Origin: Streptomyces sp. R44
Lineage (GTDB): Bacteria; Actinomycetota; Actinomycetes; Streptomycetales; Streptomycetaceae
DNA: 64,000 nt
Reading direction: 5' to 3'
NCBI RefSeq assembly: GCF_041053105.1
Contig: NZ_CP163444.1
Location: 4,092,001-4,156,000, forward strand
Position numbers and translations under genes: made by a program. The notes beneath the pieces were generated by a model. It ran no database searches. It saw only the letters and a program-made list of their open reading frames with translations, and was not told the origin of the DNA. This document shows positions 45,808-62,951 of the stretch, in pieces; position 1 is the stretch's first letter, and each line of letters opens with the position of its first letter.

Positions 45808-46383
45808 TCACACCTGGGTCCGATGGAAGTTCATGTAGGAACGGGAGGCCGTCGGCCCCCGCTGACCCTGGTACCGCGAGCCGTACCGCTCGCTCCCGTA
45901 CGGGAACTCGGCGGGCGAGCTCAGCCGGAACATGCACAGCTGGCCGATCTTCATGCCGGGCCAGAGCTTGATCGGCAGGGTGGCGAGGTTCGACAGCTCC
46001 AGGGTCACGTGCCCCGAGAAACCGGGGTCGATGAACCCGGCGGTCGAGTGCGTGACGAGCCCGAGCCGCCCGAGGGAACTCTTCCCCTCCAGACGCGACG
46101 CGATGTCGTCCGGCAGGGTGATGACCTCGTAGGTCGAGGCGAGCACGAACTCGCCCGGATGCAGGATGAACGCCTCGTCGCCCTCCGGCTCGACCTCACG
46201 GGTGAGGTCCAGCTGCTCGACGGCGGGGTCGATGTGGGGGTAGCGGTGGTTCTCGAACACCCGGAAAAAGCGGTCGAGACGCACGTCGATGCTCGACGGC
46301 TGCACCATGGATTCGTCGTACGGGTCGATGCGCACCCGTCCGGCGTCGATCTCGGCCCGGATGTCCTTGTCTGAGAGAAGCAC
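45808..46383 (-). CDS. dcd: dCTP deaminase (housekeeping)
   Basis: 191 residues from GTG at 46383 ([16 protein letters not shown]). It deaminates dCTP to dUTP for dTTP synthesis. Intact family motifs: [10 protein letters not shown] at about 29-38, [10 protein letters not shown] with Arg106, and GHVTLELSN with catalytic Glu129. This complete copy is the reference for the two altered paralogues at 59456-60528. A tRNA-Gly gene, the integration target of the mobile element, lies about 400 bp upstream. Confidence 0.96.
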
Positions 46384-46452
46384 GCCCCCACGATACGCAG
46401 AGGGCGCGGACCTGCCCCAATCGGCAGCCGTCCGCGCCCGGCACCGCACGGC

Positions 46453-46788: not shown

Positions 46789-46862
46789 GCGGATGTAGTT
46801 TAATGGTAGAACATGAGCTTCCCAAGCTTATAGCGCGGGTTCGATTCCCGTCATCCGCTCCA
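46789..46862 (+). tRNA. tRNA-Gly (anticodon CCC), element integration target
   Basis: A complete cloverleaf: acceptor GCGGATG (46789-46795) with CATCCGC (46852-46858), D-arm GTTT/GAAC, anticodon loop TTCCCAA with CCC at 46821-46823, T-loop TTCGATT, discriminator T and encoded CCA (46860-46862). The integrase gene begins to the right in the usual arrangement for a tRNA-targeting element; the gene remains intact. Confidence 0.95.
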
Positions 46863-48311: not shown

Positions 48312-48584
48312 TCAGGCCACCAGCCCGAAGCCCGTGCGGCGGGCGCGGACGGGTTCGACCGTGCGCTCCTCTACATACGCGGTCAGGACGCTGTCGGCGA
48401 TGCGGACGTGCTTGCCGAGCTTGACGTAGCGGATGCGGCGCTCGGAGATGAGGCGTCGGATGAAGCGGACGCCGGTGCCGAGGCGTTCGGCGGCCTCGTC
48501 GACCGTGAGCAGGCGGTCGTTGTTGTTCACCTCCTTCGCCGTGCGGGGCCGGGTGGAGGCGTGGGGTATCGCCGTGTGGCGCAA
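48312..48584 (-). CDS. xis: Excisionase (MerR/HTH_17-type), TTG start
   Basis: 90 residues. TTG at 48584 is chosen because AGGAGAGG lies seven bases upstream; the only other candidate, GTG at codon 20, has its ribosome binding site overlapping. The helix-turn-helix (LLTVDEAAERLGTGVRFIRR, then LISERRIRYVKLGKHVRI) is of the Xis/HTH_17 class that directs the integrase toward excision. It is one base from int, so they are co-expressed. Confidence 0.88.
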   Translation of the reverse strand: MRHTAIPHASTRPRTAKEVNNNDRLLTVDEAAERLGTGVRFIRRLISERRIRYVKLGKHVRIADSVLTAYVEERTVEPVRARRTGFGLVA

Positions 48585-49210: not shown

Positions 49211-49370
49211 TCCCCCTCCTTCCTGTCGCAGCACGTTCCTGCAATTCGCAGCAGCCTAAACAGTACACCATGCTCTGCCGCTTGCATAGTCGCTCTGCGT
49301 GTGGCATGGTTGTTGTGCTGGACCGCTGCTGTCCGCAGGAGACCGCCAGCACCTAGCCAGACATGCAAAA

Positions 49371-49401
49371 AGCCCCCCAGTGCTTGCGACACCGAGGGGC
49401 T
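49371..49401 (-). terminator. Hairpin with T-run facing the XRE promoter
   Basis: AGCCCC (49371-49376) pairs with GGGGCT (49396-49401). Read on the minus strand it is followed by a run of T, so it would stop leftward transcription before the XRE gene. The surrounding 49211-49491 region holds no gene; CGCAGCA is repeated 20 bp apart at 49227 and 49247. Confidence 0.55.
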
Positions 49402-49422
49402 CAAAGCGCAAACCTCACGCCG

Positions 49423-49437
49423 CCCATCCCTGAACGA
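49423..49437. repeat. Right arm of the 15-bp inverted repeat flanking the XRE gene
   Basis: This is the exact reverse complement of 48640-48654. It lies about 55 bp upstream of the DUF3631 gene, so it could also be an operator for that operon. Confidence 0.8.
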
Positions 49438-49491
49438 CTAGCTGCAAGGCCGGGATTGCCGTCCCGTATGGCCCGCAGATTGAGGAGCTCG

Positions 49492-50703
49492 ATGTCCAGT
49501 ATGGACGAAGCCACCCCGAACACGCCATCGCTTCCCGTCGAGTGGCCGCCGACAGCGATCCCCGGCCAGCCGACCGCCCCGCCGCCCGCCGCAGACCCCG
49601 AGGGCGTAGAGGTCCTGGACCTGCTCCGGGACGCGATCCGGCGCTACGTCGTGATGCCGAGCGACGAAGCCCTGACCGCGACCACGCTCTGGGCCGCGGC
49701 GACCCACCTGCAGACGGTGTGGCAGCACGCACCGCGCCTGGCGGTGGTCGGGCCCGCCAAGCGCTGCGGGAAATCGCGGCTGCTCGAAGTCCTGATCGAG
49801 GCGGTCCACGAGCCGCTGATCACGGTCAACGCCTCCGCCGCGGCGATCTTCCGGTCGATCGGCGAGGGCAACCCGCCCACGCTCCTGGTCGACGAAGTCG
49901 ACACGATCTTCGGCAGCGCGAAGGTCGCGGAGAAGAACGAGGAGATGCGCGGCCTGCTCAACGCCGGCCACCAGCGCAACCGGCCCACCCTGCGCGTCAC
50001 CGGCCCCAACCACGAGGTGGTCAAGTTCGACACCTTCGCCATGGCCGCCCTCGCCGGAATCGGCGACCTCCCCGACACGATCATGGACCGGTCGGTCGTC
50101 ATCCGCATGCGCCGCCGAGCCGAGACCGAGAAGGTCAGCGCCTGGCGCTACGGCCGCGACGACCTGACCGTACGCGAGCTCCGGACCCGGCTGGCGGCCT
50201 GGCTCGCCTCCGTACGCGAGAAGGCACTCGCCCTGGAACCGAAGATGCCGGTCGAGGACCGCGCCGCCGACACCTGGGCGCCGCTGATCAGCGTCGCCGA
50301 CCTCGCGGGCGGACACTGGCCCGTCCTCGCCCGCACCGCGTGCACGGCCATGACCGACTACGAGGCCGGGCGCGACGAGGACGGCGGACTGAAGATCCGC
50401 ATCCTCGCCGACATCCGCCGCGCCTTCGCCTCCGAAGGAGACCAGCCGGCGATCCGCACCGGCCGCCTCCTGGAGATCCTCAACGCCGACCCAGAGGCGC
50501 CCTGGGCCGAGCACAGCCCCAACGGGCTCACGCCGCGCGGCCTGCAGATCCTGCTCCAGGACTACGGCATCAAGTCGGCCAACCGCCGCTTCCCCGGCGG
50601 CCACCAGGCCAAGGGCTTCACCCGCGCCCAGTTCACCGACGCCTGGACCCGCTACTGCCCGCCCGAGGCAACCGCGACCCTCCCGGTCGAGCCCGGCGCC
50701 TGA
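49492..50703 (+). CDS. DUF3631 P-loop ATPase of the mobile element
   Basis: 403 residues from ATG at 49492 (GAGGAG four bases upstream); ATG at 49468 and 49501 are alternatives. Walker A GPAKRCGKS is at 87-95 and Walker B PTLLVDEVDT about 45 residues later. The C-terminal part matches DUF3631, a domain found on actinobacterial mobile elements and prophages and linked to primase/helicase-like proteins. It likely acts in element replication or maintenance. It is the first gene of the plus-strand mobilisation block. Confidence 0.82.
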   Translation: MSSMDEATPNTPSLPVEWPPTAIPGQPTAPPPAADPEGVEVLDLLRDAIRRYVVMPSDEALTATTLWAAATHLQTVWQHAPRLAVVGPAKRCGKSRLLEVLIEAVHEPLITVNASAAAIFRSIGEGNPPTLLVDEVDTIFGSAKVAEKNEEMRGLLNAGHQRNRPTLRVTGPNHEVVKFDTFAMAALAGIGDLPDTIMDRSVVIRMRRRAETEKVSAWRYGRDDLTVRELRTRLAAWLASVREKALALEPKMPVEDRAADTWAPLISVADLAGGHWPVLARTACTAMTDYEAGRDEDGGLKIRILADIRRAFASEGDQPAIRTGRLLEILNADPEAPWAEHSPNGLTPRGLQILLQDYGIKSANRRFPGGHQAKGFTRAQFTDAWTRYCPPEATATLPVEPGA

Positions 50704-51047
50704 CCCTCCCCGACTCGTCCCACTCGTCCCCGCGCAGGTCAGCGCGGGGACGAGTCAGCGACCCGCAACGAGTCGACTCGACATCACCGCCCCACCCGTA
50801 CCAGCCCTGACCAGCAGCGGGACGGGTGGGACGAGTCCCCACCGCTCACGGCCGCCCACGCCGGCGGCCACACCCAGCCCTGGAGCCCTCCACCTTGCAC
50901 CTCCCTGCTCCAAGCGCCCCGGCAGCCATGCGCAGCATCCGCGCCGGTATCGCGCGGTTCGCCTCCGGCGCCAAGAACGACGACCTCAAGCGGCGTGCCG
51001 ACCCTGGCAACACTCGCCGAGCACCCACACCCGCTGGGAGTCGGCGC
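50704..51047. other. Repeat-rich noncoding region with ACTCGT/ACGAGT boxes
   Basis: ACTCGT or its complement ACGAGT occurs at 50713, 50722, 50750, 50768 and 50831, and CGAGTCGACTCG (50769-50780) is a perfect palindrome. A perfect 14-bp stem hairpin (50722-50735 with 50742-50755) follows the ATPase stop and can terminate its transcript. CCCACCCGT (50791) pairs with ACGGGTGGG (50822). The density of repeats suggests an origin or control region. If the next gene starts at 50928, part of this is coding. Confidence 0.6.
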
Positions 51048-51983
51048 GTGAACCGCACGGGACGCATCGCCCTCGTCATCGGCCTGGTGGCCGTCGTCCT
51101 CATGGCCTTCCGAGTCTCGTGGAACGCGCTGTCCGACGTGGCCCGCGCCATCGGCGCCGACTCCACCGCCGCCCTGCTCTACCCGATCGTGGTCGACGGG
51201 CTCATGGCCCTCGCGCTGATCGCCACGCTCGTGCTGACCGGGGCCGACCGGAAGTTCGCGCTACGGGTCCTGGCGACCTACACGATCGCCAGCCTCCTAC
51301 TGAACTACGTGCACGGCCTCGTACCGGCCCTGCACACCGACTCGATCCAGTGGGGCCGACTGACCGACTTGGACTACGCGAACTGGGCCCTCGTCCTGCT
51401 GGCGACCTCACTGCCGGTCGGGTCGATCTACTTCGGGTCGGACCTCGTGGCCAAGGTGCTGCACCACAACCCCGAGTCGGCCGACTCCTCCGAACTGGCC
51501 TCTGGCCAGTCGGCTGGCGAGCAGGCCCCGCAGTCGACGCCTGACCGGGCCGAATCGGTCCCCCAGCAGTTGCCCGAGTCGACCCGCATGGAGGTCACCG
51601 AAGCGCCCGTGACGGGGCCGGCCGAGGGAGCCGAATCGTCCCCCGCCACCCGGCCGCCCCGATCGGCCGCAGTGGCGGAGTCGACCGGAGCCTCCCCACG
51701 TCGGGCGACCGGTCAGGTCCCCGCTCCCGCCAAGTCGACCACCGACCAGACCGGCATCTCGCCCGAACTCCTCGATCGGGCCCGACTCCTGACCGCCGAC
51801 TGGACCGACGAACAGCTCACCGCCGTGCGGCTGCGTACCGAACTACGGATCGGCCAGAAACCCTCCCGACTCCTGCGCGACCAACTGCAGGCCGACCGCA
51901 CCGGTCAGGTCCAACCCGTCACGTACAACGCCTTCGAGGCCGGGTCGCTCGACGAAGGCGCCTCCCCCGCGCGCACCGTCTGA
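51048..51983 (+). CDS. DUF2637 membrane protein
   Basis: 311 residues from GTG at 51048 (CTGGGAG seven bases upstream); ATG at 50928 would add 40 residues but lacks a ribosome binding site. About four membrane segments lie at 5-135 (RIALVIGLVAVVLMAFRVSW, then LYPIVVDGLMALALIATLVL). A long Pro/Ser/Glu-rich cytoplasmic tail ends in a small helical domain (LLDRARLLTADWTDEQLTAV). DUF2637 proteins are typical of Streptomyces plasmids and integrative elements, probably in transfer or spreading. Followed by mobC and the relaxase. Confidence 0.75.
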   Translation: MNRTGRIALVIGLVAVVLMAFRVSWNALSDVARAIGADSTAALLYPIVVDGLMALALIATLVLTGADRKFALRVLATYTIASLLLNYVHGLVPALHTDSIQWGRLTDLDYANWALVLLATSLPVGSIYFGSDLVAKVLHHNPESADSSELASGQSAGEQAPQSTPDRAESVPQQLPESTRMEVTEAPVTGPAEGAESSPATRPPRSAAVAESTGASPRRATGQVPAPAKSTTDQTGISPELLDRARLLTADWTDEQLTAVRLRTELRIGQKPSRLLRDQLQADRTGQVQPVTYNAFEAGSLDEGASPARTV

Positions 51984-52087
51984 TCCTGCCCTTCGGCGCA
52001 TCCCGTGTCCCCGTGCAGCCGAGCACGGGGACACGGGGCCTCGCACAGCCAAGCCCCAGGCACTATCACCCCACGGAGAACCGACCC

Positions 52088-52669
52088 ATGCACGACCCGC
52101 ACCACGAACTCCCCACCACCCAGCAGGAGACGATCACCGGCCTCAACAGCGCAGCAAGTTGTCGGGTAAGGAGTCCTTACCCGGCCTCCGCCCCAGGGGA
52201 GGCGGAGGCGTCCGGCGCTGAGGGGACGCCGCTGTCGGCCGGCCCGGGGGAGCCGACTCAGGGAGAAGCCACACAGCCGTCCGCGCCGCGCCGCCGTCTT
52301 CGCGAACCCACGCTGCGCGAGAAGCGCGTCCACCCCCGTTACAGCCACGATGAGTTCGCCCTCCTCGCAACCGCCGCTCACCTCAGCCGCATGCAGATCG
52401 GCGGCTACGTCGCCGAGACCTCGCTCGCCGCCGCCCGCTCCGACGACCCCACCGCCGCGGTCGCCGACTACCGCGCCATGGTCAAGGCGCTGATGGCCGC
52501 CAATCGCCAGCTCGCACTGATCGGCAACAACCTCAACCAGCTCGCCTGCCACCTCAACAAGGACGGCGCCTGGCCCGCGCCGGACATCGTGGCGAGGCTG
52601 CTGGACCGGGTCGAGACATCGGTCGACGATGTGGACCTGGCCGTCGCCCAGGTGATCTCGGGGCGGTGA
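52088..52669 (+). CDS. mobC: MobC-like relaxosome accessory protein
   Basis: 193 residues from ATG at 52088. Residues 1-75 are low-complexity; the conserved part begins RRLREPTLREKRVHPRYSHD, a ribbon-helix-helix-like DNA-binding start, and continues to the MobC signature ANRQLALIGNNLNQLACHLN. MobC loads the relaxase at oriT. The N-terminal coding region holds perfect inverted repeats (52163-52183 and 52185-52210), so either oriT overlaps the gene or translation starts later. Four bases upstream of the relaxase. Confidence 0.85.
   Translation: MHDPHHELPTTQQETITGLNSAASCRVRSPYPASAPGEAEASGAEGTPLSAGPGEPTQGEATQPSAPRRRLREPTLREKRVHPRYSHDEFALLATAAHLSRMQIGGYVAETSLAAARSDDPTAAVADYRAMVKALMAANRQLALIGNNLNQLACHLNKDGAWPAPDIVARLLDRVETSVDDVDLAVAQVISGR
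52163..52210. other. Candidate oriT: two adjacent inverted repeats
   Basis: CGGGTAAGGA and TCCTTACCCG (52163-52172, 52174-52183) form a perfect repeat around one base. GCCTCCGCC (from 52185) pairs with GGCGGAGGC just after. A hairpin beside the mobC-relaxase genes is the usual place for the nick site. Confidence 0.5.
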
Positions 52670-52673
52670 CCGC

Positions 52674-54380
52674 GTGATACCGAAGATCATCCTTGGCAAG
52701 GGTGCGCGTGCCACCCGCCGCCTGATCGGCTACCTCTACGGCCCGGGCTCCGCCAACGAGCACACCGACCCGCACCTGGTGGCGTCCTGGAACGGCTTCG
52801 CCCCCGACCCCGGCCGCAGCCCCCGCCGCAATCCCAGGGACGTCGAGGACCAGCTCGCCGCGCAGCTCGACCAGCCCGTGAAGATGCTCGGCGACAAGGC
52901 CCCGACGACCACGGTGTGGCACTGCCCCATGCGTGCCGCGCCCGAGGACCCGATCCTGACCGACGCCCAGTGGGCGGACATCGCCCGCCGGATCGTGGCC
53001 GTCGCCGGCATCGCCCCCGAAGGCGACGAGGAAGCCTGCCGCTGGGTCGCGGTCCGCCACGCCGACGACCACATCCACATCGCCGCCACCCTCGTACGCC
53101 AGGACGGACGCCGCCCCCGCCGCGACCACGACATCCGCGCCGTCCAGCGCGAAGCCCGCCAGATCGAAGCCGACCTCGGCCTGCGCCGCCTCAACCCCGG
53201 CGACGGCACCGCCGCCAAACGCCCCACCAGCAAGGAGCACTTCAAGGCCAAGCGCCAGGGCCAGGACACCACCACCCGCGAGATCCTGCGCATGCGCGTC
53301 CGCCGCGCCGTGGCAGCCGCCTCCAGCGAGACCGAGTTCTTCGCCCTGCTGGAGGCGACCGGCGTAGACGTCCGGCCCAAGGTCGGACCGTCCGGCGACA
53401 TCCTCGGCTACAGCGTCGCCCTGGCCGGCGACCTCAACAAACACGGGGAACCGGTGTGGTTCTCCGGCTCCACCCTTGCCGGCGACCTCTCCCTGCCCAA
53501 GATCCGCCACCGCCTCACCGACACCACACCCGAACCGGTCACCGCCCGGCCGGCCGACCCCTGGCACCAGGCCACCGCCGCCACCGAACGCATCCCCCAC
53601 CGCCTCACGCACAGCAGCGACCACATCGCCCAAGGCCAGCTCGTCGCCCTCGGTGGAGCCCTCGACCTGCTGCCACTCACCGCACCAGCCGCGGCGAGGA
53701 CCGAACTCGAACGGGCCGCCGCCCTCTTCGAGCGCGCCACCCGCTCCCGCCTCACCGCCGACCTCGACAGCGCCCGCGTCCTGCGCCGCAGCGTCCAGGC
53801 GATCCTGCGCACCCCCGCCGCGACGCGCGACGGGGCCGGGCTGGCGATGTTGCTGGACGCCGCCCTCATCGCCGTGGCCTTCGCGAAGCATTGGCACCGC
53901 ACCCACCAGCACGCCCAGCAGGAGGCGGCAGCCCAGCAGGCCCTCGTCCACCTCCAGACCGCCTATGCCCAGGTCGCCGTCCCGGTCCTGGACGGCCTCG
54001 CCCGCCGCACCCCCGGCATCCAGACCAAACAGCGCTACGCCCGTCACCTCCAGCAGGCCGCCCCCGAGCACGCCGACCGCATCCTGAAGGACCCCGCCTG
54101 GGACGCCCTCGCCACCGTCCTCGCCGACGCGGAAACGGCGGGCCACAACCCGACCACTCTCCTCGACCAGGCCCTCGGCCAACGCACCCTCGACGACGCC
54201 CGCAACCCCGCCCGCGCCCTGACCTGGCGCATCCACCGCCTCGGCCAACGCCACGCACCCGGCCCTCTCGCCCAGGCAGCCATGTCCCGCAGCACCACAC
54301 GCCGTCCCAGCGCCCAGATCCACCCGCCGACGGCCACACCAGCCGCTGCACCGCAGCAGCCACACGTGCGGCGACGTTGA
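52674..54380 (+). CDS. HUH relaxase / mobilization nuclease
   Basis: 568 residues from GTG at 52674. The N-terminal relaxase domain has the metal-binding HADDHIH motif with His129, His133 and His135, and early Tyr residues in LIGYLYGPG as nucleophile candidates. The C-terminal 300 residues are helical and Ala/Arg-rich. It nicks oriT and pilots the strand in conjugation. With MobC but no TraB or type IV genes visible, the element looks mobilizable rather than self-transmissible. Confidence 0.92.
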   Translation: MIPKIILGKGARATRRLIGYLYGPGSANEHTDPHLVASWNGFAPDPGRSPRRNPRDVEDQLAAQLDQPVKMLGDKAPTTTVWHCPMRAAPEDPILTDAQWADIARRIVAVAGIAPEGDEEACRWVAVRHADDHIHIAATLVRQDGRRPRRDHDIRAVQREARQIEADLGLRRLNPGDGTAAKRPTSKEHFKAKRQGQDTTTREILRMRVRRAVAAASSETEFFALLEATGVDVRPKVGPSGDILGYSVALAGDLNKHGEPVWFSGSTLAGDLSLPKIRHRLTDTTPEPVTARPADPWHQATAATERIPHRLTHSSDHIAQGQLVALGGALDLLPLTAPAAARTELERAAALFERATRSRLTADLDSARVLRRSVQAILRTPAATRDGAGLAMLLDAALIAVAFAKHWHRTHQHAQQEAAAQQALVHLQTAYAQVAVPVLDGLARRTPGIQTKQRYARHLQQAAPEHADRILKDPAWDALATVLADAETAGHNPTTLLDQALGQRTLDDARNPARALTWRIHRLGQRHAPGPLAQAAMSRSTTRRPSAQIHPPTATPAAAPQQPHVRRR

Positions 54381-54390
54381 CCGGCCGATG

Positions 54391-54455
54391 TGTTCCCCGA
54401 AGGAACATCGAATGCGTTCCCTTGGGGAACAGCCGTCGCGTTCCCCAAGGGAACG
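54391..54455. repeat. Three GTTCC-N5-GGAAC palindromes on a 24-bp pitch (left array)
   Basis: GTTCC begins at 54392, 54416 and 54440 and GGAAC at 54402, 54426 and 54450, so each unit is a 15-bp palindrome and the spacing is exactly 24 bp. Inner arm bases vary in compensating pairs. It lies between the convergent relaxase and flavoprotein genes. A matching array is at 62816-62951. Confidence 0.88.
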
Positions 54456-54459
54456 GCGA

Positions 54460-55002
54460 TCACCGTCCGGAAGAGCCTGCGATCTTGCCGTCCAGCAGCT
54501 CCAGCGCCTCCTCCCAACGGAAGCGGTCCGCTCCACCGCCTGCCTTGGGGCGGTGAGGCTCGTACGACCCGACCAGCACACCCATCTCGCGCAGCTGGTC
54601 CAGGCTCCGGCCGTAGGCCGGGTGTGCGGCCATGGCGGCGTTCACGTACGGCAGGACGGCAATCGGAATGCCCATCCCGTACGCCTCGCACAGGATGCCG
54701 AGGGCGAGGGTGTCGGCGATGCCTGCCGCCCACTTGTTGATCGTGTTGAACGTAGCCGGCGCGACAGCGATGGCGTCGGCCGGCGGGAGCGGGCGCGGGT
54801 CACCCGGGCTGCGCCAGGCCGAGCGGATCGGGTAGCCGGTCTGGGCCTCGATCGCCTCGGTGTCGAGGAAGCCGAGCCCTTGGGGTGTGGCTATGACGCC
54901 GACGCCCCAGCCCTGCTCCTGCGCGGCGGTGATCAGCTTGTGGGCGTCGCCCGCGATGCCGGCGGCGCAGACGACGACGTACAGGAACGGCTGTGCGGTC
55001 AC
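54460..55002 (-). CDS. Flavoprotein of the HFCD (Dfp/EpiD-like) family
   Basis: 180 residues. The Rossmann-like flavodoxin fold of phosphopantothenoylcysteine decarboxylases is suggested by VVVCAAGIAGDAHKLI at the N-terminus, ADAIAVAPATFNTINKWAAG near 75-94 and GIPIAVLPYVNAAMAAHPAY near 112-131. Relatives bind FMN and oxidatively decarboxylate C-terminal or peptide-like cysteines (CoaC, EpiD), but the catalytic His and substrate-loop identity cannot be settled by eye. Its start overlaps the regulator stop by four bases, so they form a coupled pair. Confidence 0.8.
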   Translation of the reverse strand: MTAQPFLYVVVCAAGIAGDAHKLITAAQEQGWGVGVIATPQGLGFLDTEAIEAQTGYPIRSAWRSPGDPRPLPPADAIAVAPATFNTINKWAAGIADTLALGILCEAYGMGIPIAVLPYVNAAMAAHPAYGRSLDQLREMGVLVGSYEPHRPKAGGGADRFRWEEALELLDGKIAGSSGR

Positions 55003-56282
55003 GCGGGGACTCCCAGTCGGCGGCTGAAGTGGTGGAGCTCGGGCAGCGTACGTCGCCGGTCGCGGGCGGCCATGTCGGCGACCAGGTCGCGGACGGCGGG
55101 GCGGCGTACGTCCTGGGCGGCGCAGGTCTCGGCGATGCGGAGGGCCTGGTAGCCCTCGGCAAGGCGGCCCTGCTGGTTGTAGGCACGCGCGGCTTCGACC
55201 CAGAGCGCTGCTCGTCGTTCGGGCGCGGGAATGTGTCGGCGCATAAGGGGTGCCGCGGCGTTCAGGGCGATACCGGCGTCGCCGAAGGACACCGAGGCGC
55301 TGACGGCATGGATCGCGACGTTGGTCGGGCTGAAGTTGGCCCAGGCGTCGGGCTGGTCGAGCGCGACGTACCGGGCGACCTCCCGTGCCTCGTCGAGGAA
55401 CTCCCGGGTGGCGGCGCGGTCACCGCCGCGGCTGGCCGCGGTCGCTCCCCGTAGAAGCAGCAGACCGACGGCGGCGAGGTATCGGGGCGGGTGCCGATCG
55501 TAGGAGCCGGCGAGCTGGCCCGCGGTGTGGCGGACGAGGGTGACGGCCTGGGCGGTGTGTTTCTCGCGGGTCAGGACGTGGGCGTGAAGGCGGACGCTGG
55601 AGGCGAGGACGACGGGATCACCGGAGCGCTCGGCCTCTGCCATGGCACGTCCCACCGCCAACCAGGCGTTGCCCTGGTCGCCCTGCTTGAGCAGCAGGCT
55701 CGTCGAGGTCCGGTAAGCGGTGGCCAGAAGCCCGGCCGTCTCCTCGGCGTTGCGGTGATCGCCTGTCGCCTCCCGCAGATCGGCGATGAGACCAGGCAGC
55801 ATCGCCTCCAGCTCCGCGTAGTCGCAGGTGCAGAAGAGGCGGCGGGCGGTGGTGAGTCTGTCCCGCAGGGGCTGCATCTCTCCGTTCCACGAAGAGGCGG
55901 AGCCTGCTCTGGGGCCAGGGAGAAGTGCGCGTACAAGGTCGTCATGGGCGGCGGTGGCGGGCGTCGCCGGGGCCGTGAGGGAGGCGATGCTCGCGGCGAG
56001 GAAGGTTCGGCGGCGCATGTCTTCTGTCTCGGGATCGTCGGTCGTTTCTACGGACGGGCCGGGGCCGCTCAGGCCAAGAAGATGGAGGGCGATGCCCAGT
56101 TCGGAGGCGACAGCACGTAAGACCCGGGTGTCTTCCGTACCCCGTCCGTTCTCCAGGCGGCTGAGCTTCGACTGGTGGTAGCCCAGCGCGGTGGCAACGT
56201 CCGTCTGCGAGCGGCCGGTGCGCTGTCGGGCGTGTTTGATCGTCTCGCCGATCTTCTCGGCCTCGGTCTTCACTTCTGCCAT
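54999..56282 (-). CDS. XRE regulator with TPR-like C-terminus
   Basis: 427 residues from ATG at 56282 (GGAAGGG upstream). The helix-turn-helix at about 10-70 (IKHARQRTGRSQTDVATALG, then YHQSKLSRLENGRG) is followed by a linker and, from about 140, helical TPR-like repeats to the end. Such regulators sense ligands or peptides and are common beside Streptomyces mobile or biosynthetic genes. It is coupled to the flavoprotein and divergent from the six-gene operon, with two perfect inverted repeats between, so it probably controls both. Confidence 0.85.
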   Translation of the reverse strand: MAEVKTEAEKIGETIKHARQRTGRSQTDVATALGYHQSKLSRLENGRGTEDTRVLRAVASELGIALHLLGLSGPGPSVETTDDPETEDMRRRTFLAASIASLTAPATPATAAHDDLVRALLPGPRAGSASSWNGEMQPLRDRLTTARRLFCTCDYAELEAMLPGLIADLREATGDHRNAEETAGLLATAYRTSTSLLLKQGDQGNAWLAVGRAMAEAERSGDPVVLASSVRLHAHVLTREKHTAQAVTLVRHTAGQLAGSYDRHPPRYLAAVGLLLLRGATAASRGGDRAATREFLDEAREVARYVALDQPDAWANFSPTNVAIHAVSASVSFGDAGIALNAAAPLMRRHIPAPERRAALWVEAARAYNQQGRLAEGYQALRIAETCAAQDVRRPAVRDLVADMAARDRRRTLPELHHFSRRLGVPA

Positions 56283-56309
56283 CCATGCCCTTCCGTCCGC
56301 GTCGAGCAT

Positions 56310-56364
56310 GCCCCTGCGGTCGAGCGTAGGCGAGCGACGCAGGGGCTTCATGCAGCTTCTGCAT
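56310..56364. promoter_or_regulatory. Divergent control region of the cargo: two inverted repeats
   Basis: GCCCCTGCG (56310-56318) pairs with CGCAGGGGC (56338-56346), and ATGCAG-CTT-CTGCAT (56350-56364) is a perfect repeat. Both lie between the divergent XRE-TPR gene and the operon starting at 56453. They are candidate operators. Confidence 0.55.
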
Positions 56365-56452
56365 AGAAGATGCGGGACGGGCACACGGCGTCGCGAACGA
56401 GGCTGACCGCGCGGTTCCTTGGGGTGGTCGATCCGACTCCTGGAGGCCGCTC

Positions 56453-56905
56453 GTGGAAGCGCACCAGCTCACCTTGACTCTCCCTCCCGCACCGGTCGCC
56501 GTGCCCACGGCACGACGCCAGGTGCGGGAGGCCATAACCGCCTGCCCCACGGTGACAGCGGCGTCGGAAGCCATCCAGACGGCCGAGCTGGTCGTCAGCG
56601 AGCTCGTCACGAACGCGGTCCGATACGCCGGCCACCAGCCGATCAGCTTCGTCATCCAATTCTGCGCCACGGCCTTGCGGGTGGAGGTCAGCGACGCGAG
56701 CCGCACTCTGCCGAGACCGGCGCTACCTGACGAAGACAGCGAGGGCGGACGTGGTCTCTTCCTCGTCGGTGTCCTCGCAGACCGCTTCGGCACGACGCCG
56801 ACCGACTCCGGCAAGTGCTGCTGGGCCGAGATCGACTTGGCCGCCCCGCCTCCGGCCGGGGCTGCTGCCGCCTTGTCCCTTCCCACGCAGAGGAGTTGTA
56901 CGTGA
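56453..56905 (+). CDS. RsbW-like ATP-binding protein
   Basis: 150 residues from GTG at 56453 (GGAGG seven bases upstream). A GHKL ATPase of the anti-sigma type with N-box ELVVSELVTNAVRYAG at about 44-59, a DASR G1-like motif and GGRGLFLVGVLADRFG. Streptomyces has many such proteins, usually regulatory kinases or sensors. Here it leads an operon, and its stop overlaps the next start by four bases (GTGA), so it may control or be co-expressed with the pathway. Its partner is unknown. Confidence 0.85.
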   Translation: MEAHQLTLTLPPAPVAVPTARRQVREAITACPTVTAASEAIQTAELVVSELVTNAVRYAGHQPISFVIQFCATALRVEVSDASRTLPRPALPDEDSEGGRGLFLVGVLADRFGTTPTDSGKCCWAEIDLAAPPPAGAAAALSLPTQRSCT

Positions 56906-58224
56906 GTACCCGCGTCCCCGCCGTCATGTCCCAGGTGATCGCGATCCGGCCCGGCCGGCCCCTCACCGGTGCCGTGACGGTCGATGGTTCGAAGAACGCC
57001 GCGCTCCCGCTCGTAGCCGCTGCGGCAGCCCTCCTTCGCCCCGTCCGTCTCGACAACGTGCCCGCCAGCTCGGACGTCCAGACCCTTCTGGATCTGCTGC
57101 GGCAGTCGGGCTGGAACACCGCCCATCCGGTCGGTGACGACCACACCGTCCTTGTCCTTCCCCGCGAGACGGCCCCGATGCCCGACGGCCTGCGCGAGGC
57201 CGCGTCCAGCATCCGGGCCTCGTACTACCTCGTCCCCGCTCTGATCGCCCTGTGCGGCCAGGCCCGGCTTCCCTGGCCAGGCGGTTGCCGGATCGGCGAC
57301 CGCGGGATGGAGCAGCACTTCAAGGTGTACGAAGCCTTCGGCGATCGCGTCCGCGTAGATGACAACGGGTACGTCGTCGAAGCCGGCAAGGCCGTCCGTG
57401 GCACGGTGTCGCTGGTCCTGCCGTTCCGGTCGCGCGGGGCGACGATCGCCGCGGTCCTGCGCGCTGTGGTTGCCGGTACGCCGCTGCGGCTCGGGCAGCC
57501 GAACCTCTCCCCGGAGGTCCTCGGCGTCCTGAACGCGCTGATGGCCGTGGGGTACGAGTGCCGTGCCCGCGAGCGCGTCCTGACTCTCGTGCCGCCGTCT
57601 TCCGTCCCGGAAGAGGATGTACCCGTCTGGAAGGTGCCTGGAGACAAGATCGAGGCCGGGACCTTGGCCTGCGCCGTGGCCGCAACCGGCGGAACCGCGC
57701 GGGTCGAGGGCGTCCACGGACCCGATGTCGCGCCGCTGGTCGGCGCCCTCCACCGGATGGGCATCCCCACGACCAACGAACCGGAGACCCTGGTCGTCCA
57801 CGGACGGGACACCCAGCCGACCGGCCGCCCCCTGCGGGCCATGGCCACCCTCGCCCCCAACGGCCTCGACGCCGACTTCGAGCCGCCGCTCCTCGGGCTC
57901 GCCCTGGGCTTCCCCGGCACCCACCTCTTCTCGGACCCGATCAACCCCGGGCGCCACAGCAACCTCATTCCCCAGCTCGTCCGCATGGGCGGCGAGATCA
58001 CCGAACTGTCCTCCACCGAATGCCGGTTCACTGGCCCGCAGCGGCTGACGGGTGCAGGAGTGGAGGCAACCGACATCCGCACGGGTTCAGCGCTGATGGT
58101 CGCCGGCCTCACCGCCCGCGGCGTCACGACGCTCGGCGGGGTCAACCAAATCCGCCGCGGCCACGCCGACCTGCCCGGAAAGCTCCTCGCTCTGGGAGCC
58201 GACATCTGCGAGGTCACCCCATGA
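56902..58224 (+). CDS. MurA/NikO-like enolpyruvyl transferase
   Basis: 440 residues from GTG at 56902 (GAGGAG six bases upstream). Inside-out alpha/beta barrel family of MurA: Lys31-Asn32 in DGSKNAALPL and the loop Cys129 in PGGCRIGDRG match the catalytic Lys-Asn and Cys of MurA. MurA adds enolpyruvate to UDP-GlcNAc; relatives NikO and PolA use UMP in nikkomycin and polyoxin. A cargo location and neighbours acting on nucleotides favour a nucleotide acceptor here, by inference. A spare MurA giving fosfomycin tolerance is the alternative. Confidence 0.88.
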   Translation: MSTRVPAVMSQVIAIRPGRPLTGAVTVDGSKNAALPLVAAAAALLRPVRLDNVPASSDVQTLLDLLRQSGWNTAHPVGDDHTVLVLPRETAPMPDGLREAASSIRASYYLVPALIALCGQARLPWPGGCRIGDRGMEQHFKVYEAFGDRVRVDDNGYVVEAGKAVRGTVSLVLPFRSRGATIAAVLRAVVAGTPLRLGQPNLSPEVLGVLNALMAVGYECRARERVLTLVPPSSVPEEDVPVWKVPGDKIEAGTLACAVAATGGTARVEGVHGPDVAPLVGALHRMGIPTTNEPETLVVHGRDTQPTGRPLRAMATLAPNGLDADFEPPLLGLALGFPGTHLFSDPINPGRHSNLIPQLVRMGGEITELSSTECRFTGPQRLTGAGVEATDIRTGSALMVAGLTARGVTTLGGVNQIRRGHADLPGKLLALGADICEVTP

Positions 58225-59459
58225 CCGCGACCGGGCGCTTCGAGCGCATCATCGCTACCACCGATGTCCACTCGGCCTTCGACGACGCCCTGCCGATGCT
58301 CGCGTACCTGCACACGATGAGGCACGACAGCCTCGTCGTCGACTGTGGGGACTTCTTCGAGGGCACGGGCTACTACCGCCTGGGCAAGGGCGCCATCGAG
58401 CGGGAGATCGTCACGACGCTGTACGACGTGCTCGCTCCCGGCAACCACGGCTGGCCCCACTACTTCGAGCCCGGCCTGCGCGAGATGACGGTCTGCGCCA
58501 ACGTCGTCGACGACGCCACCGGACGACCGCTGTTCGACCGTCTCCGTGTCGTCGAGGTACACGGCCGCCGGGTCGCCGTCACCGCGGTCATCGGCGTGAG
58601 CGCGTTCCACACCGTCCCTGCCGTCCAGCGGGCCGGACACCACGTCACCGACCCCGTGACCGCGCTGCGCGAGCTGATGCTGGAACACCATCACCACGTG
58701 GACTCGTGGATCGTGCTGTCCCACTCCGGCTTCGACGAGGACCTCAAGCTCGCCGAGGCTTGTCCGTTCGTGGACGTCATCTTCGCCGGTCACTGCCACA
58801 GCGACACCTACGGTCCGGTGCACGTCGGCGACACCCTCGTGGTCAAGGGCCGTGAGCTGGCCGCCGGATACGCCGCCGCCGAACCCGTCGGCTCCGGCTG
58901 GGCCGCCCGTACCGCCGTCTTCCCCACCCCACCGGACGTCCCGAACGACCTCGCAGCCCTGGACGAGAGGGTCAGCTCCACCTGCCGGATGCTCGCCACT
59001 CCCCTCGGCACCCTCGACGAGCCCTACCGCGACACCGTCCTCGACCGCCGCCAGCTCCTCCAGGACATCACCGCCCGGCTGCACACGGGCCTCGGCGCCG
59101 ACGCCGTCCTCCTCAACGAAACCGCCCTGCGCTCCACCCGCCTGGGCGACGTCCTGACGCTCGGGGACCTGCTGGCCATCGAGCCGTTCGACAACCAGCT
59201 CGTCCACGCCTACCTCCCCAACGGGTACGCGGAGGATCCGGACAGCCTGCTCAAGCACCTGACCCAGCAGACCGGCCCACTGGCCCTCGCCCCCCGGCCG
59301 CTGCCGCAGGGCATCCGGTCCGTCCTGACCACGGACTACCTCGCCGACACCTACCTCGGCGGACGCACCCACCAGGCCGGCCTCCGCCTCGGCGAGGCCG
59401 TCCGCGGAACCATCGCCACGCCCTTACCCCGGAGCGAGAACAAGGACGGTGCCCGATGA
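58221..59459 (+). CDS. 5'-nucleotidase-like metallophosphatase
   Basis: 412 residues, ATG overlapping the previous stop (ATGA). Calcineurin-like metal motifs: DVH (Asp15, His17), CGDFFEG with Asp44, APGNHGW, and GHCHSD; a C-terminal domain (about 265-400) resembles the substrate domain of UshA-type 5'-nucleotidases (DAVLLNETALRS, then LTLGDLLAIEPFDNQL). UshA proteins are exported, but no signal peptide is present, so this one is cytoplasmic. It would dephosphorylate a nucleotide or UDP-sugar-like intermediate. Confidence 0.85.
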   Translation: MTATGRFERIIATTDVHSAFDDALPMLAYLHTMRHDSLVVDCGDFFEGTGYYRLGKGAIEREIVTTLYDVLAPGNHGWPHYFEPGLREMTVCANVVDDATGRPLFDRLRVVEVHGRRVAVTAVIGVSAFHTVPAVQRAGHHVTDPVTALRELMLEHHHHVDSWIVLSHSGFDEDLKLAEACPFVDVIFAGHCHSDTYGPVHVGDTLVVKGRELAAGYAAAEPVGSGWAARTAVFPTPPDVPNDLAALDERVSSTCRMLATPLGTLDEPYRDTVLDRRQLLQDITARLHTGLGADAVLLNETALRSTRLGDVLTLGDLLAIEPFDNQLVHAYLPNGYAEDPDSLLKHLTQQTGPLALAPRPLPQGIRSVLTTDYLADTYLGGRTHQAGLRLGEAVRGTIATPLPRSENKDGAR

Positions 59460-59995
59460 TCCTCACCGGCCCCGAGATCACTGCCGCCGCCCACGACGGC
59501 CGCCTGACGATCAGCCCGTTCGAACCCGGGCAGGTCAACCCCAACAGCTACAACGTCCGCCTCGGCCCCACCCTGCTGACCTACACGACCGCCGTCATCG
59601 ACGCCCACCAGCCCAACCCGACCGCCACGGTCGAGATCGGCGAGGACGGGTACGTCCTGCAGCCCGGCGAGCTCTACCTCGGCCACACCCTCGAACAGGT
59701 CGGCTCCGACACCTTCGTCCCGCTGCTGTTCGGCCGCTCCTCCGTCGGCCGACTCGGCCTGTTCGTCGAGATCACCGCCCCCATCGGCGACATCGGCTTC
59801 CACGGCCAGTGGACCCTGATGCTCTCCCCGATCCGGCCTCTGCGCGTGTACGCGGGCATGAAGATCGGGCAGATCATGTTCTTCGTCTCCACCGGCGACA
59901 TCGACCTGTACGCGGGCAAGTACCAGGCCGCCGACGGCCCCCAGCCCTCCCGCTACTGGCGGGACACCGCCCGCGTCGGGGCGGTCGCCTCGTGA
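59456..59995 (+). CDS. dCTP deaminase-like protein A (catalytic Glu replaced by Met)
   Basis: 179 residues, start overlapping the previous stop. The dUTPase/DCD trimer fold is evident from NPNSYNVRLG and GRSSVGRLGL with Arg99. The strand that should carry the catalytic Glu reads GQWTLMLSP, with Met122 at the position of Glu129 in the housekeeping enzyme. It therefore should not deaminate on its own. The following gene encodes a paralogue with the opposite loss. The two probably form a mixed trimer or bind a nucleotide without deaminating it. Confidence 0.85.
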   Translation: MILTGPEITAAAHDGRLTISPFEPGQVNPNSYNVRLGPTLLTYTTAVIDAHQPNPTATVEIGEDGYVLQPGELYLGHTLEQVGSDTFVPLLFGRSSVGRLGLFVEITAPIGDIGFHGQWTLMLSPIRPLRVYAGMKIGQIMFFVSTGDIDLYAGKYQAADGPQPSRYWRDTARVGAVAS

Positions 59996-60528
59996 TCCTC
60001 ACCGGCCCCGCGATCACCGCCGCCATCCGAGTCGGCGCGATCACCATCGCCCCGTACGACCCCACCCGTGTCTCCCCGAACGCCTACGACTGGCGCCTCG
60101 GCGACACCCTCCGCGTGTGCGACGGCGACCTCGACGCCGCCGCCCCCACCGCCTACACCGAGCAGACGATCCCCAGCACCGGCCTGGTCCTCCAGCCCGG
60201 ACTGCTCTACCTCGGCGTCACCCACGAGCGCACCGGCTCGGAGACGTACGCGCAGATGCTCAACGGTGACCGCACCATCGGCGCCCTCGGCATCTGGGTC
60301 CACGTCTCCGCCCCGCTCGGGCACCAGGGACACGCGATCCGCTGGACCCTGGAGATCCGCGCCGCCCGCCCCGTCCGCGTATATCCGGGCATGACGTTCG
60401 GCAAGCTGGTCTTCCTAGCCACCCAGGGCACACCGGCCAGCTACCAGCAGCAGCTGGCGAAGTACGCCGCCACCGAGGGCATCGACATCTCCCGCCTCTA
60501 CGAGGAGATCGCCGGAGGCAGCCGATGA
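59992..60528 (+). CDS. dCTP deaminase-like protein B (conserved Arg replaced by Ala)
   Basis: 178 residues from GTG at 59992, overlapping the previous stop (GTGA). It starts MILTGPAITAA, almost identical to protein A, and keeps the Glu (Glu121 in RWTLEIRA), but the loop [10 protein letters not shown] reads GDRTIGALGI, with Ala98 in place of the conserved Arg and the Ser pair changed. SPNAYDWRLG matches the first motif. The pair arose by duplication and each has lost a different active-site element. Confidence 0.83.
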   Translation: MILTGPAITAAIRVGAITIAPYDPTRVSPNAYDWRLGDTLRVCDGDLDAAAPTAYTEQTIPSTGLVLQPGLLYLGVTHERTGSETYAQMLNGDRTIGALGIWVHVSAPLGHQGHAIRWTLEIRAARPVRVYPGMTFGKLVFLATQGTPASYQQQLAKYAATEGIDISRLYEEIAGGSR

Positions 60529-61646
60529 ACTCCCTCGCCAGTCCCGCCCAGGAACCGATGACCGCCACCTTCCTGGACCTGCCTGCCGGCAGCCCCGGCG
60601 GCAGCGTCGAACTCTTCCTCGACCTCTACACCGGCGAAAAGCCCCTCATCCCTGCGAGGGCCTTCATGCTCACCCCGGCCGGACCCGGCCCCCGAACGCC
60701 AGCCGGCCTCGAACTGCTCAGCGCGGGCGGCAAGTGCCTGGAGGGGCCGGCCTTCGGCCGCTACGTCGCCGCCCTGCGCAGGGCTCTGACGGCCGCGCTC
60801 GACCCCTCCCAGATCGACGTCCTCCACCTGCACCACCTCGCCTTCGGTGCCACCCCCGCCTTGATCCGGGCCCTGCCCGCGCACCCCCGCATCGCCCTGG
60901 TCCACGGCACCGACCTGATCTTCGCCGAAGCCCACCGCGACCAGCTCCAGGCCCTGCGGGCGACTGCCCGGGCCGCCGACGCCATCGTCGTCCCCACCGG
61001 CGCCATGGCCGACCACCTCCTCAAGCTCGCCCCGCAGACCGACCGCCGCAAGATCACCCACATCCCCTGGGGCATCCCCGACCGGCTCCTCACTCACCCG
61101 CCCAGCCGCACCGCCCGCACGTCCAAGAGCCACCTCCGCCTGCTGTACGCGGGTCGGCTGACCGCGGAGAAGGGCGCCGAGGCCCTGCTCCGGGGCGTGG
61201 CCCCGCTCCAGGGCGTCGAGCTGTCGATCGCCGCCCCCGGCGCCCAGTTCCGCGCGCTGGCCCCAAGGCTGCAACGAGCCGGGGTGAGGGCCCGTTATCT
61301 CGGCTGGCTCCGCCGTCCCCAGCTGTGGAAAACGTTCGCCGAGCACGACGTGCTCGTCATGCCATCCACGACCCTGGAGGCCATGGGCCTGGTCGCCCTG
61401 GAAGCCCAAGCCTGCGGCCTCCCCGTCCTCTACCAGCCCGTCCCCGGCCTCAGCGAAGCTCTCGCCCGCTCTGGGTTGGCCACGGACTTCACCCATCCCA
61501 CCGCCCTCGCCCGGGACCTCGACCGCCTGCGAACCGAACCCGGCCTCCTCCCCACCCTGCAGCAGGCGGGATACGCCAACGCCGCCCGGTACCCCCTGTC
61601 GAAGACCGCCCGAGAACTGGCCGGCCTCGGCCACCAGCTCACCTGA
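60525..61646 (+). CDS. GT4-family glycosyltransferase
   Basis: 373 residues, ATG overlapping the previous stop (ATGA). GT-B fold: N-terminal Gly/Ser loop (PAGSPGGSVELFL), DVLHLHHLAFG, and a C-terminal nucleotide-sugar site with the retaining EX7E motif in TLEAMGLVALEAQACG and HIPWGIP. No signal or membrane segment. It would glycosylate the product of the upstream enzymes using a nucleotide sugar. It ends the coupled operon; a hairpin terminator follows. Confidence 0.88.
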   Translation: MNSLASPAQEPMTATFLDLPAGSPGGSVELFLDLYTGEKPLIPARAFMLTPAGPGPRTPAGLELLSAGGKCLEGPAFGRYVAALRRALTAALDPSQIDVLHLHHLAFGATPALIRALPAHPRIALVHGTDLIFAEAHRDQLQALRATARAADAIVVPTGAMADHLLKLAPQTDRRKITHIPWGIPDRLLTHPPSRTARTSKSHLRLLYAGRLTAEKGAEALLRGVAPLQGVELSIAAPGAQFRALAPRLQRAGVRARYLGWLRRPQLWKTFAEHDVLVMPSTTLEAMGLVALEAQACGLPVLYQPVPGLSEALARSGLATDFTHPTALARDLDRLRTEPGLLPTLQQAGYANAARYPLSKTARELAGLGHQLT

Positions 61647-61656
61647 ACACCAGTCG

Positions 61657-61703
61657 GGGCCGGGCAACGCCCCCACGACCAGCGGCACGCCGTTGCCCGG
61701 CCC
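61657..61703 (+). terminator. Hairpin terminator of the six-gene operon
   Basis: Perfect 13-base arms (61657-61669 and 61691-61703) around a 21-base loop, just after the glycosyltransferase stop. Confidence 0.78.
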
Positions 61704-61758
61704 ACCCGTCTCACGTCATTACGCTGGCCGCTGGGATACCCAGACGAAGAGGGAGACC

Positions 61759-62802
61759 ATGGCGTACCGCACCGACCGCATCGAGAACCTTCTGAGCGAA
61801 GGCGTCCGCGACAAGGTCTACCCGGGTGCGGTGTGGGCCGTCGGCGACTCCGGCGGAGTCCGGGCGTCGGGTGCCACCGGGGTCCTGGAGCCCGACGAAC
61901 CGGACGTGAGGATGCGGCCGGACACTGTCTTCGACGCTGCCAGCCTCACCAAGATCCTCGCTGTCTGGGCCTCCATCGGCGCCCTGTGGGAGGACAGCGT
62001 CCTCGACCTCGACGCCCCGCTCGGCACCTTCTGGGACGAGGTCACCGGCCACCCCCTCGGGGCCGTAAGCGCCCGCCAGCTCCTGACCCACACCGCCGGC
62101 CTCCCCCTCCGGGCCCAGCTGAAGAACCTCTACGGCACCGACCCCGCCGGCATCCGCCGCGGAGTCCTGCACGAAGCCCTCAACCAGCCACCCGGCGAAG
62201 CCGTCGAGTACACCGACCGGGCCGCCCTCATCCTCGGCTACCTCGCCGAGCACCTCTCCGGCCAACCTCTCGATCAGCTCTGCGAGACGAGGACCTGGCA
62301 CCCACTGGGCATGGACTCGACCCGGTTCGGCCCGCTGCCGGCCGACATCGCGTCCCGATGCGCTCCCACCGAACTGGACCAGGACACCGGCACCCACCTC
62401 AAGGGCACCGCACACGACTTCTCCGCCCGGCTCCTCGGCGGAGTCTGCGGCATCGCCGGCACCTTCACCGTCCTCGACGACTTGGCCGTCTTCCTGCGCT
62501 ACATGCTCGACCACACCACGGCCCCCGGCGAGGCCGGCTTCGGTGCCGAGTGGAGCGCCCACTCCGTCACCGTGCAGACCGGCGGCCTCCAGCCCGAGCG
62601 CGGCCTGTTCTGGCATCCGGCGCCCGGCACCACCGACGAACAGGACGTCTGGGTCCACTACGGCTTCACCGGCACCGGCATGTGGATCTCCCCCACCCAG
62701 GACCGGTGGGCGGTGCTACTGACCAACAAGCTCTACTACACCCGCGACCGCCAGCCGCTGACCGATGTCCGCAACGCCTTCCGCGAGTTGGCGTTCGCCT
62801 GA
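61759..62802 (+). CDS. Serine hydrolase (class C beta-lactamase-like)
   Basis: 347 residues from ATG at 61759 (GAGGGAG upstream). Penicillin-binding/beta-lactamase fold with the SxxK motif SLTK near residue 63, a YTD in the second (YxN) motif position near 143-145, and HYGFTGTG in the place of the KTG strand. Members include esterases, D-amino-acid peptidases and transacylases; no signal peptide is present, so a peptidoglycan role is unlikely. It follows the coupled operon after a terminator and may have its own promoter. Substrate unknown. Confidence 0.82.
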   Translation: MAYRTDRIENLLSEGVRDKVYPGAVWAVGDSGGVRASGATGVLEPDEPDVRMRPDTVFDAASLTKILAVWASIGALWEDSVLDLDAPLGTFWDEVTGHPLGAVSARQLLTHTAGLPLRAQLKNLYGTDPAGIRRGVLHEALNQPPGEAVEYTDRAALILGYLAEHLSGQPLDQLCETRTWHPLGMDSTRFGPLPADIASRCAPTELDQDTGTHLKGTAHDFSARLLGGVCGIAGTFTVLDDLAVFLRYMLDHTTAPGEAGFGAEWSAHSVTVQTGGLQPERGLFWHPAPGTTDEQDVWVHYGFTGTGMWISPTQDRWAVLLTNKLYYTRDRQPLTDVRNAFRELAFA

Positions 62803-62815
62803 GGCAGCCCTGGCA

Positions 62816-62951
62816 TGTTCCCCAAGGGAACAGCAGCCTGTTTCCTCAGGAAACACCCCCTCTATCCCCCGAGGAAACGGCGGATCCTCTCCGTCTCGGA
62901 ACACCGATCCCGTTCCGTCTTGGAACGCTCCTGCCGTTCCGAGACGGAACG
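62816..62951. repeat. Six palindromic units on a 23-25 bp pitch (right array)
   Basis: Centres lie at about 62824, 62847, 62871, 62896, 62919 and 62943. Units 1, 2, 5 and 6 are strong palindromes (TGTTCCC/GGGAACA, TGTTTCC/GGAAACA, CGTTCC/GGAACG, CCGTTCCG/CGGAACGG); units 3 and 4 are decayed. Arms change in compensating pairs. The design matches the left array at 54391-54455, so the two bracket the cargo genes. Confidence 0.85.

Follow-up and report, generated by a model that had tools for sequence, protein, structure and literature searches.

What is made by a group of genes that sets a MurA-like enolpyruvyl transferase (EPT) beside a 5'-nucleotidase, two altered proteins of the dCTP deaminase (DCD) fold, a glycosyltransferase and a serine hydrolase, and that travels on a mobilizable element? 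The question is raised by a locus of Streptomyces sp. R44, within a stretch of 64,000 nucleotides (hereafter the window) that corresponds to positions 4,092,001-4,156,000 of a single-contig genome of 8.89 Mb. An initial annotation had interpreted the locus as a nucleotide-modifying operon akin to nikkomycin/polyoxin-type pathways. That interpretation is supported in part: we hold, with moderate confidence, that the locus is a mobile biosynthetic operon making a nucleotide-derived small molecule, but the EPT is nearer to MurA than to NikO. The genes concerned, in window coordinates, are the following.

54460..55002, minus strand: flavoprotein, phosphopantothenoylcysteine-decarboxylase-like (PF02441, E 4.6e-13)
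54999..56384, minus strand: XRE regulator (NsdA-like), divergent from the operon (PF13560; NsdA family below cut-off, 53.7 versus 75 bits)
56453..56905, plus strand: RsbW-like ATPase, accessory (PF13581, E 5.3e-14)
56902..58224, plus strand: EPT, MurA/NikO fold (EPSP_synthase in Pfam)
58221..59459, plus strand: compact two-domain 5'-nucleotidase (Metallophos)
59456..59995, plus strand: DCD1 (DCD)
59992..60528, plus strand: DCD2 (DCD)
60525..61646, plus strand: GT4 glycosyltransferase (PF13692, E 2e-17)
61759..62802, plus strand: serine hydrolase, class-C beta-lactamase superfamily (PF00144, E 3.4e-47; open reading frame (ORF) opens at 61693)

Read directly from the ORFs, the six genes from the RsbW-like ATPase to the glycosyltransferase are joined, as annotated, by 4-nt stop/start overlaps at five junctions (GTGA 56902, ATGA 58221, ATGA 59456, GTGA 59992, ATGA 60525). 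Pfam agrees with the domain identity first given to each gene (HATPase_c_2, EPSP_synthase, Metallophos, DCD, DCD, GT4 and Beta-lactamase superfamily, with divergent HTH_31 and Flavoprotein); the regulator is presumably of the kind named XRE-TPR. The EPT starts at GTG 56902, the longer ORF from 56815 not being taken, and the serine hydrolase probably starts at ATG 61759, where conservation begins in a family alignment from which tblastn stretches with a stop or less than 85% coverage were removed before conservation was counted.

The gene set is real and widespread. Scanning genome contigs with the EPT, a search reaching close relatives only, yielded 31 loci, all titled Streptomyces, and 22 of these contain a collinear core of EPT, 5'-nucleotidase, DCD1, DCD2, GT4 and serine hydrolase, always in the same order and on one strand; among the other nine, five reach a contig end (L009, L018, L027, L029, L030) and four are partial and remnant-like (L022, L032, L033, L034). 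A search of the family with the phosphatase matched 35 of 394 genomes, and the 38 regions seeded by it comprise 31 with the collinear core in one order, two cut by a contig end (L106, L107), four of a second type (L070-L073) and one other (L074). The co-occurrence in other genomes on which the initial annotation had staked its proposal is observed for the six core genes, which recur in order in 22/22 and 31/31 loci holding all of them. These counts set no coverage limit and include broken or partial matches: at least four of the 53 core loci seem to contain one or several damaged genes (L025 and L031 in the EPT set, L089 and L100 in the phosphatase set). The two sets share genomes (e.g., L008/L099, L009/L106). 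Over 55 loci with core genes (window and plasmid L133 included; 54 distinct DCD stretches), the 4-nt overlap is kept in 52 between EPT and phosphatase, 41 between phosphatase and DCD1, 51 between DCD1 and DCD2 and 53 between DCD2 and GT4, and in none between GT4 and serine hydrolase. Since the order recurs in every relative with all six core genes and the overlaps are kept, the arrangement is far beyond chance. One complete copy lies on a Streptomyces plasmid. Strong matches in a phylum search of 396 genomes were confined to the window genome and one congener (five others were short, ~1e-11), and a class search of 394 genomes found two DCD1-like matches (E up to 1e-25) in each of five genomes, which all belong to the window's family, and a single match in five others. 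No description of the gene set, nor any paper linking a dCTP deaminase with such a cluster, was found in the open-access collection searched, judged by title and start of abstract; a paper beyond that collection may have been missed.

The genes upstream behave differently from this core. The RsbW-like gene is missing from 16 of the 55 loci and overlaps the EPT gene in 16, and XRE regulator, flavoprotein and RsbW were matched in 20, 20 and 20 of the 22 EPT-seeded core loci and in 20, 20 and 18 of the 31 phosphatase-seeded ones. RsbW and the XRE-flavoprotein pair are accessory; hence, the six-gene set counted initially from RsbW onward has real overlaps, but the conserved unit runs from EPT to serine hydrolase, and of the genes then grouped as further cargo the serine hydrolase belongs to the core while XRE and flavoprotein are accessory. 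The frequency of the regulator beside the operon, together with the transfer module that adjoins the operon in the window, would also suit an operon making a signal rather than an antibiotic, with XRE as receptor and the molecule controlling element transfer; we give this idea a small chance, as 11 of the 31 phosphatase-seeded core loci have no XRE match and nothing marks XRE as a receptor.

The two altered DCD proteins are the chief finding. DCD1 keeps S95, S96, R99 and GKYQ (154-157) and has Met122 at the position of the catalytic Glu, whereas DCD2 keeps Glu121, has R94, T95 and A98 in place of Ser, Ser and Arg, and lacks GKYQ. The role of this Glu is presumed to be that of Glu138 in E. coli Dcd, and we take SSxxR to be motif II and the Glu strand motif III. 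Among pairs of the window's type (type 1), the Met/Glu split occurs in 57/57, and the Met member has SS, R and GKYQ in 57/57. All 15 complete pairs outside type 1 (L070-L073, L126-L132, L135-L138) consist of one member with Glu and no GKYQ and another with Gln and GKYQ, the Glu member keeping SSxxR except in L138; ten loci gave no clean pair, being mostly host Dcds only, and L031, with a truncated DCD1, is not among the 15. Nine host-type Dcds retain Glu, SS, R and the RYQ form of the C-terminal motif (the mis-trimmed host Dcd of L078 was not scored), and the solitary DCDs of Paenibacillus polymyxa and Aneurinibacillus (Bacillota, n=2) retain Glu, SS, R and GKYQ. The catalytic Glu, the phosphate-site SSxxR and the C-terminal motif are therefore never all in one chain of a pair, while DCD1 and DCD2 are jointly complete. 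DCD1 exceeds the cut-off of TIGR02274 (dCTP deaminase, 92.8) with 104.4 bits, and DCD2, at 60.2 bits, falls below it. In a tree of 53 sequences, DCD2 and the Glu-bearing members of other clusters make up a single clade of 22 (UFBoot 99). Of the 14 members that bear Gln, 13 make up another (UFBoot 92; that of Embleya lies outside), with subgroups matching those of the Glu clade. A phage origin of the pair was considered and rejected, DCD2 as sole query giving one weak match (30.7%) in 50,697 phage records. According to extracts of the published accounts, dCTP deaminase active sites sit at intersubunit clefts (PMC4827122), and the trimers of dUTPase (PMC12524310) and DCD (PMC4827122) build each site from two subunits. 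Since each site is built from two subunits and the motif loss is complementary, the most economical interpretation is that DCD1 and DCD2 would form a heteromer with a single composite site. We see an even chance that the DCD-fold tandem pair, sharing a composite site, represents a hetero-oligomeric enzyme of a new type and marks an unrecognised class of nucleotide-derived natural-product pathways, carried by plasmids and mobile elements in Actinomycetota and Rhizobium, and that the type found here additionally employs, on a nucleotide, an enolpyruvyl transferase distinct from both MurA and NikO and so of a third kind.

DCD pairs recur in quite different surroundings. A plasmid search with a type-2 DCD returned 16 records, 11 with more than one place, of which 13 were examined (two Paenibacillus records and Nonomuraea gerenzanensis were left out). 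Type 2 has the order phosphatase-TauD-DCD-DCD-PIG-L-WbqC-GT4, with additional FGE-like or aminoacyl-tRNA synthetase-like, MurG-like and HIT genes. In L127, ~7 kb further on, there are also two genes annotated as radical SAM. Type 3 (L126) combines P450-DCD-DCD-tRNA-synt_2-methyltransferases-pyridoxal-phosphate decarboxylase. Type 4, on plasmids of Streptomyces, Nonomuraea and Nocardiopsis, runs P-loop protein-DCD-DCD-methyltransferase-sugar genes-glycosyltransferase, with sugar-nucleotide genes among the neighbours. L128 and L135 also have a helix-turn-helix (HTH) regulator, and L128 a cytidine-deaminase-like gene; L135-L137 are unannotated and their genes were read by eye. Type 5 (DCD-DCD-methyltransferase-NUDIX) occurs on Rhizobium plasmids, two of them typed conjugative, and L131 adds a P-loop/deaminase-like fusion. 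In 18 other DCD or phosphatase loci, tblastn found no match to the window's XRE or RsbW at 1e-4, and the type-2 phosphatase and GT4 match those of the window (28-36%), as does the phosphatase of L074 (45%). This last gene lies beside a radical SAM protein (L074:7344-10546, minus strand), with RpiB-like and GT2 genes nearby, and L074 is possibly another nucleotide-derived cluster.

Because varied tailoring enzymes surround a constant DCD pair, these clusters argue for the biosynthesis of nucleotide-derived compounds and not for defence. Some dCTP deaminases act against phage, and this, with the mobile location, underlay the initial alternative of an anti-phage defence that would deplete or alter nucleotides. 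It has lost ground, and we now regard it as very improbable: when ten proteins were compared with PADLOC, matches fell at the XRE HTH region only; neither GT4 nor EPT nor serine hydrolase is a depletion enzyme; elsewhere, DCD pairs accompany tailoring enzymes; and DCD1 is without the catalytic Glu.

The EPT retains K31, R105, C129, R134, D325, R351, R393 and R419, the catalytic and phosphoenolpyruvate (PEP)-chemistry residues that are invariant in its family, in which R176, R178, G135, P349 and G350 are also fixed. Residue numbers are those of the window protein; the E. coli numbering of MurA and Dcd is presumed, and MurA labels such as K160 are approximate. In a midpoint-rooted tree with MurAs of one phylum, 30 EPTs form their own clade apart from 31 MurAs (support 0.825, stem 1.59), and R176 and R178, present in 30/30 EPTs, correspond to P in 29/31 and V in 25/31 MurAs. 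The EPT scores 230.5 bits against TIGR01072 (MurA equivalog; cut-off 392.7) and also stays under the cut-off of NF006873, and its identity to MurA is 27-34%. Its nearest sequence and fold matches, among the best five listed, are nevertheless MurA and not NikO, and its named relatives, among the 120 of 2234 matches listed, are nearly all annotated as UDP-N-acetylglucosamine 1-carboxyvinyltransferase. Of the comparison with NikO/PolA and MurA envisaged initially, the tree places the protein outside the MurA clade, and the ranking of matches does not bring it closer to NikO. In L003, a second MurA-like protein, belonging to the host, seems by eye to bear an XRE-type HTH N-terminus.

These matches leave room for a route through UDP-N-acetylglucosamine (UDP-GlcNAc), in which the EPT would be a divergent MurA whose product, UDP-GlcNAc-enolpyruvate, goes into an amino-sugar metabolite or serves to modify the envelope; the phosphatase would act as a UDP-sugar hydrolase and GT4 would use the sugar. 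UshA-like enzymes hydrolyse UDP-sugars, and GT4 resembles MshA, with 53.6 bits, far under the cut-off of 462.5. We consider this route unlikely, as the nucleotide-side residues are changed in all 30 EPTs, both MurA cut-offs are unreached and the DCD pair would be left unexplained. As for the remaining enzymes, the phosphatase joins a metallophosphoesterase domain to a second, 5'-nucleotidase domain, and its metal-ligand positions are kept, as expected of a putative 5'-nucleotidase; the serine hydrolase, in which S62-L-T-K65, Y151 and H300-Y-G-F-T-G are invariant in 15 aligned sequences, reaches 31.7 bits against NF033085 (class C beta-lactamase; cut-off 415) and has no signal peptide recognisable by eye.

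We return to the nucleotide-derived small molecule. The conservation of the genes, their order and overlaps, the retained catalytic residues, the complementary DCD losses and the element genes are observed; for the pathway itself, we infer every substrate, the order of the steps, the heteromer, the product and any NikO-type route. The EPT would move enolpyruvyl from PEP onto a hydroxyl of a phosphorylated nucleotide other than UDP-GlcNAc. DCD1 and DCD2, as one hetero-oligomer whose composite site would unite SSxxR and the C-terminal GKYQ of DCD1 with the catalytic Glu of DCD2, would perform a hydrolytic step, most likely cytosine nucleotide deamination. The 5'-nucleotidase would take off the 5'-phosphate, GT4 would attach a sugar, and the cytosolic serine hydrolase would carry out an acyl transfer or hydrolysis. 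Loci with the divergent XRE regulator would have their expression governed by it, and the mobilizable element would serve as carrier.

Several observations weigh against this scheme. All catalytic residues common with MurA are kept, so UDP-GlcNAc may be the EPT substrate, and a few of the 31 MurAs have the same residue as the EPT (one with R at the R176 position, two with R at the R178 position, three with G at the G350 position). Separate cytidine-deaminase-like domains in L128 (25.2 bits) and L131 (27.0 bits; cut-off 25) weaken the case for deamination by the DCD pair. DCD1 is not in the Gln-bearing clade, and its branch lies outside the remaining pair members (UFBoot 80); the Embleya pair is 1.2 kb apart, with its Gln member outside the Gln clade; and on an Embleya plasmid (L170:13974-14489, minus strand) a Glu-type DCD without GKYQ lies beside a kinase-like gene with no adjacent partner. 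Neither a transporter nor a self-resistance gene was recognised in the operon core.

The carrier itself, initially described as a mobilizable element, is probably one, with an integrase, an excisionase, MobC and a weakly matched relaxase at a tRNA-Gly gene.

45808-46449, minus strand: host housekeeping dcd beside tRNA-Gly
46789..46862, plus strand: tRNA-Gly(CCC), insertion site of the element (ARAGORN)
47099..48310, minus strand: tyrosine integrase (PF00589, E 1.3e-10)
48312..48584, minus strand: excisionase, HTH_17 (PF12728; TIGR01764 56.9 bits, cut-off 28.8)
49363..54380, plus strand: transfer module (Pfam for parts except the relaxase)
49363-50703, plus strand: DUF3631 (Pfam)
50826-51983, plus strand: DUF2637, presumably SpdB-like (Pfam)
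52013-52669, plus strand: MobC (Pfam)
52674-54380, plus strand: relaxase (no Pfam match; weak NF041325 MobB match, 28.3 bits versus cut-off 400)
54392..54454: left array, three GTTCC-N5-GGAAC palindromes of 24-bp period
62817..62950: right array, same palindromes at 62817, 62912 and 62936 with a GTTTCC form between, the last two 24-bp spaced

The relaxase is named for its position and for homologues that adjoin the cargo; relaxase or mobC lies within the fetched stretch in 17/22 EPT-seeded and 13/31 phosphatase-seeded core loci. With the window extended, the 3' half of tRNA-Gly is repeated at 67639 (28 bp), 71022 (42), 74530 (28) and 78875 (43); there is also a degenerate copy at 66403, and 86320 holds a 23-bp piece. 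Given five partial copies at 66.4-78.9 kb and the piece at 86.3 kb, the right border is ambiguous and lies beyond the window, and the several copies (66403-78917 in L109; 86320 in L110) suggest successive insertions at one site. tRNA genes occur in 9/49 related stretches: Gly(CCC) in L032, L075, L076 and L078, Arg in L006 and L010, Pro in L011, Phe in L028 and Lys in L101. In L010 and L028 the tRNA gene is several kb away from the cargo. A third dCTP deaminase in L032, L075, L076 and L078 (34-36%), considered as a self-resistance copy, was rejected as such, being the host dcd beside the tRNA-Gly site.

In the whole 8.89-Mb genome, the two-unit 24-bp palindrome pattern is found at the left array and at 62912-62950 only (reversed control 0). 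A cluster of GTTCC-N5-GGAAC palindromes is present in 9/69 related loci, and the two-unit pattern in 9/101 genus genomes, the window's included. Eight stretches were fetched around the pattern (L182-L189); seven hold a relaxase homologue, within ~0.5 kb of the array in five, and L188 has no relaxase match. Of the five, L185 carries the same operon and the other four do not. Since a relaxase is near in 7/8 other stretches, mostly with other cargo, the arrays are possible markers of the site where cargo inserts, and the mobilizable element may exchange cargo beside its relaxase.

If the proposed reading is true, many Streptomyces genomes hide a pathway to an unknown nucleotide-derived compound under the names 'MurA' and 'dCTP deaminase', the tandem DCD pair offers a handle for more pathways without a textbook biosynthetic signature, and the pair itself shows, in bacteria, one enzyme divided between complementary paralogues.

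Compared with known systems, the operon combines familiar parts in an altered form. With MurA, the EPT has in common the fold, the PEP-handling residues and the catalytic Cys, but it forms a separate clade at 27-34% identity and its nucleotide-side residues are changed. With the nikkomycin/polyoxin pathway (NikO/PolA, NikJ/PolH, PolJ), the operon would share, as is predicted here, two nucleotide-directed enzymes, an enolpyruvyl transferase and a phosphatase; its core has no radical SAM gene, the missing NikJ homologue having been noticed initially, and its EPT is nearer to MurA. To our knowledge, no DCD pair, GT4 or serine hydrolase belongs to that pathway. NikO, in the extract of PMC6801904, puts enolpyruvyl on the 3'-OH of UMP. 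Integrative and mobilizable elements of actinomycetes likewise have tRNA insertion, tyrosine integrase, excisionase, MobC, relaxase and DUF2637, whereas the cargo here is a conserved metabolic operon between palindrome arrays. The fold and motifs of the pair are those of the dCTP deaminase/dUTPase superfamily, from which it differs by the complementary loss of the catalytic Glu and of phosphate-site or C-terminal motifs. A counterpart is the monomeric herpesvirus dUTPase, whose duplicated units, as an extract of PMC12524310 describes, each lost some motifs and share one composite site; the viral units are fused in one chain, whereas those of the operon are encoded by two tandem genes.

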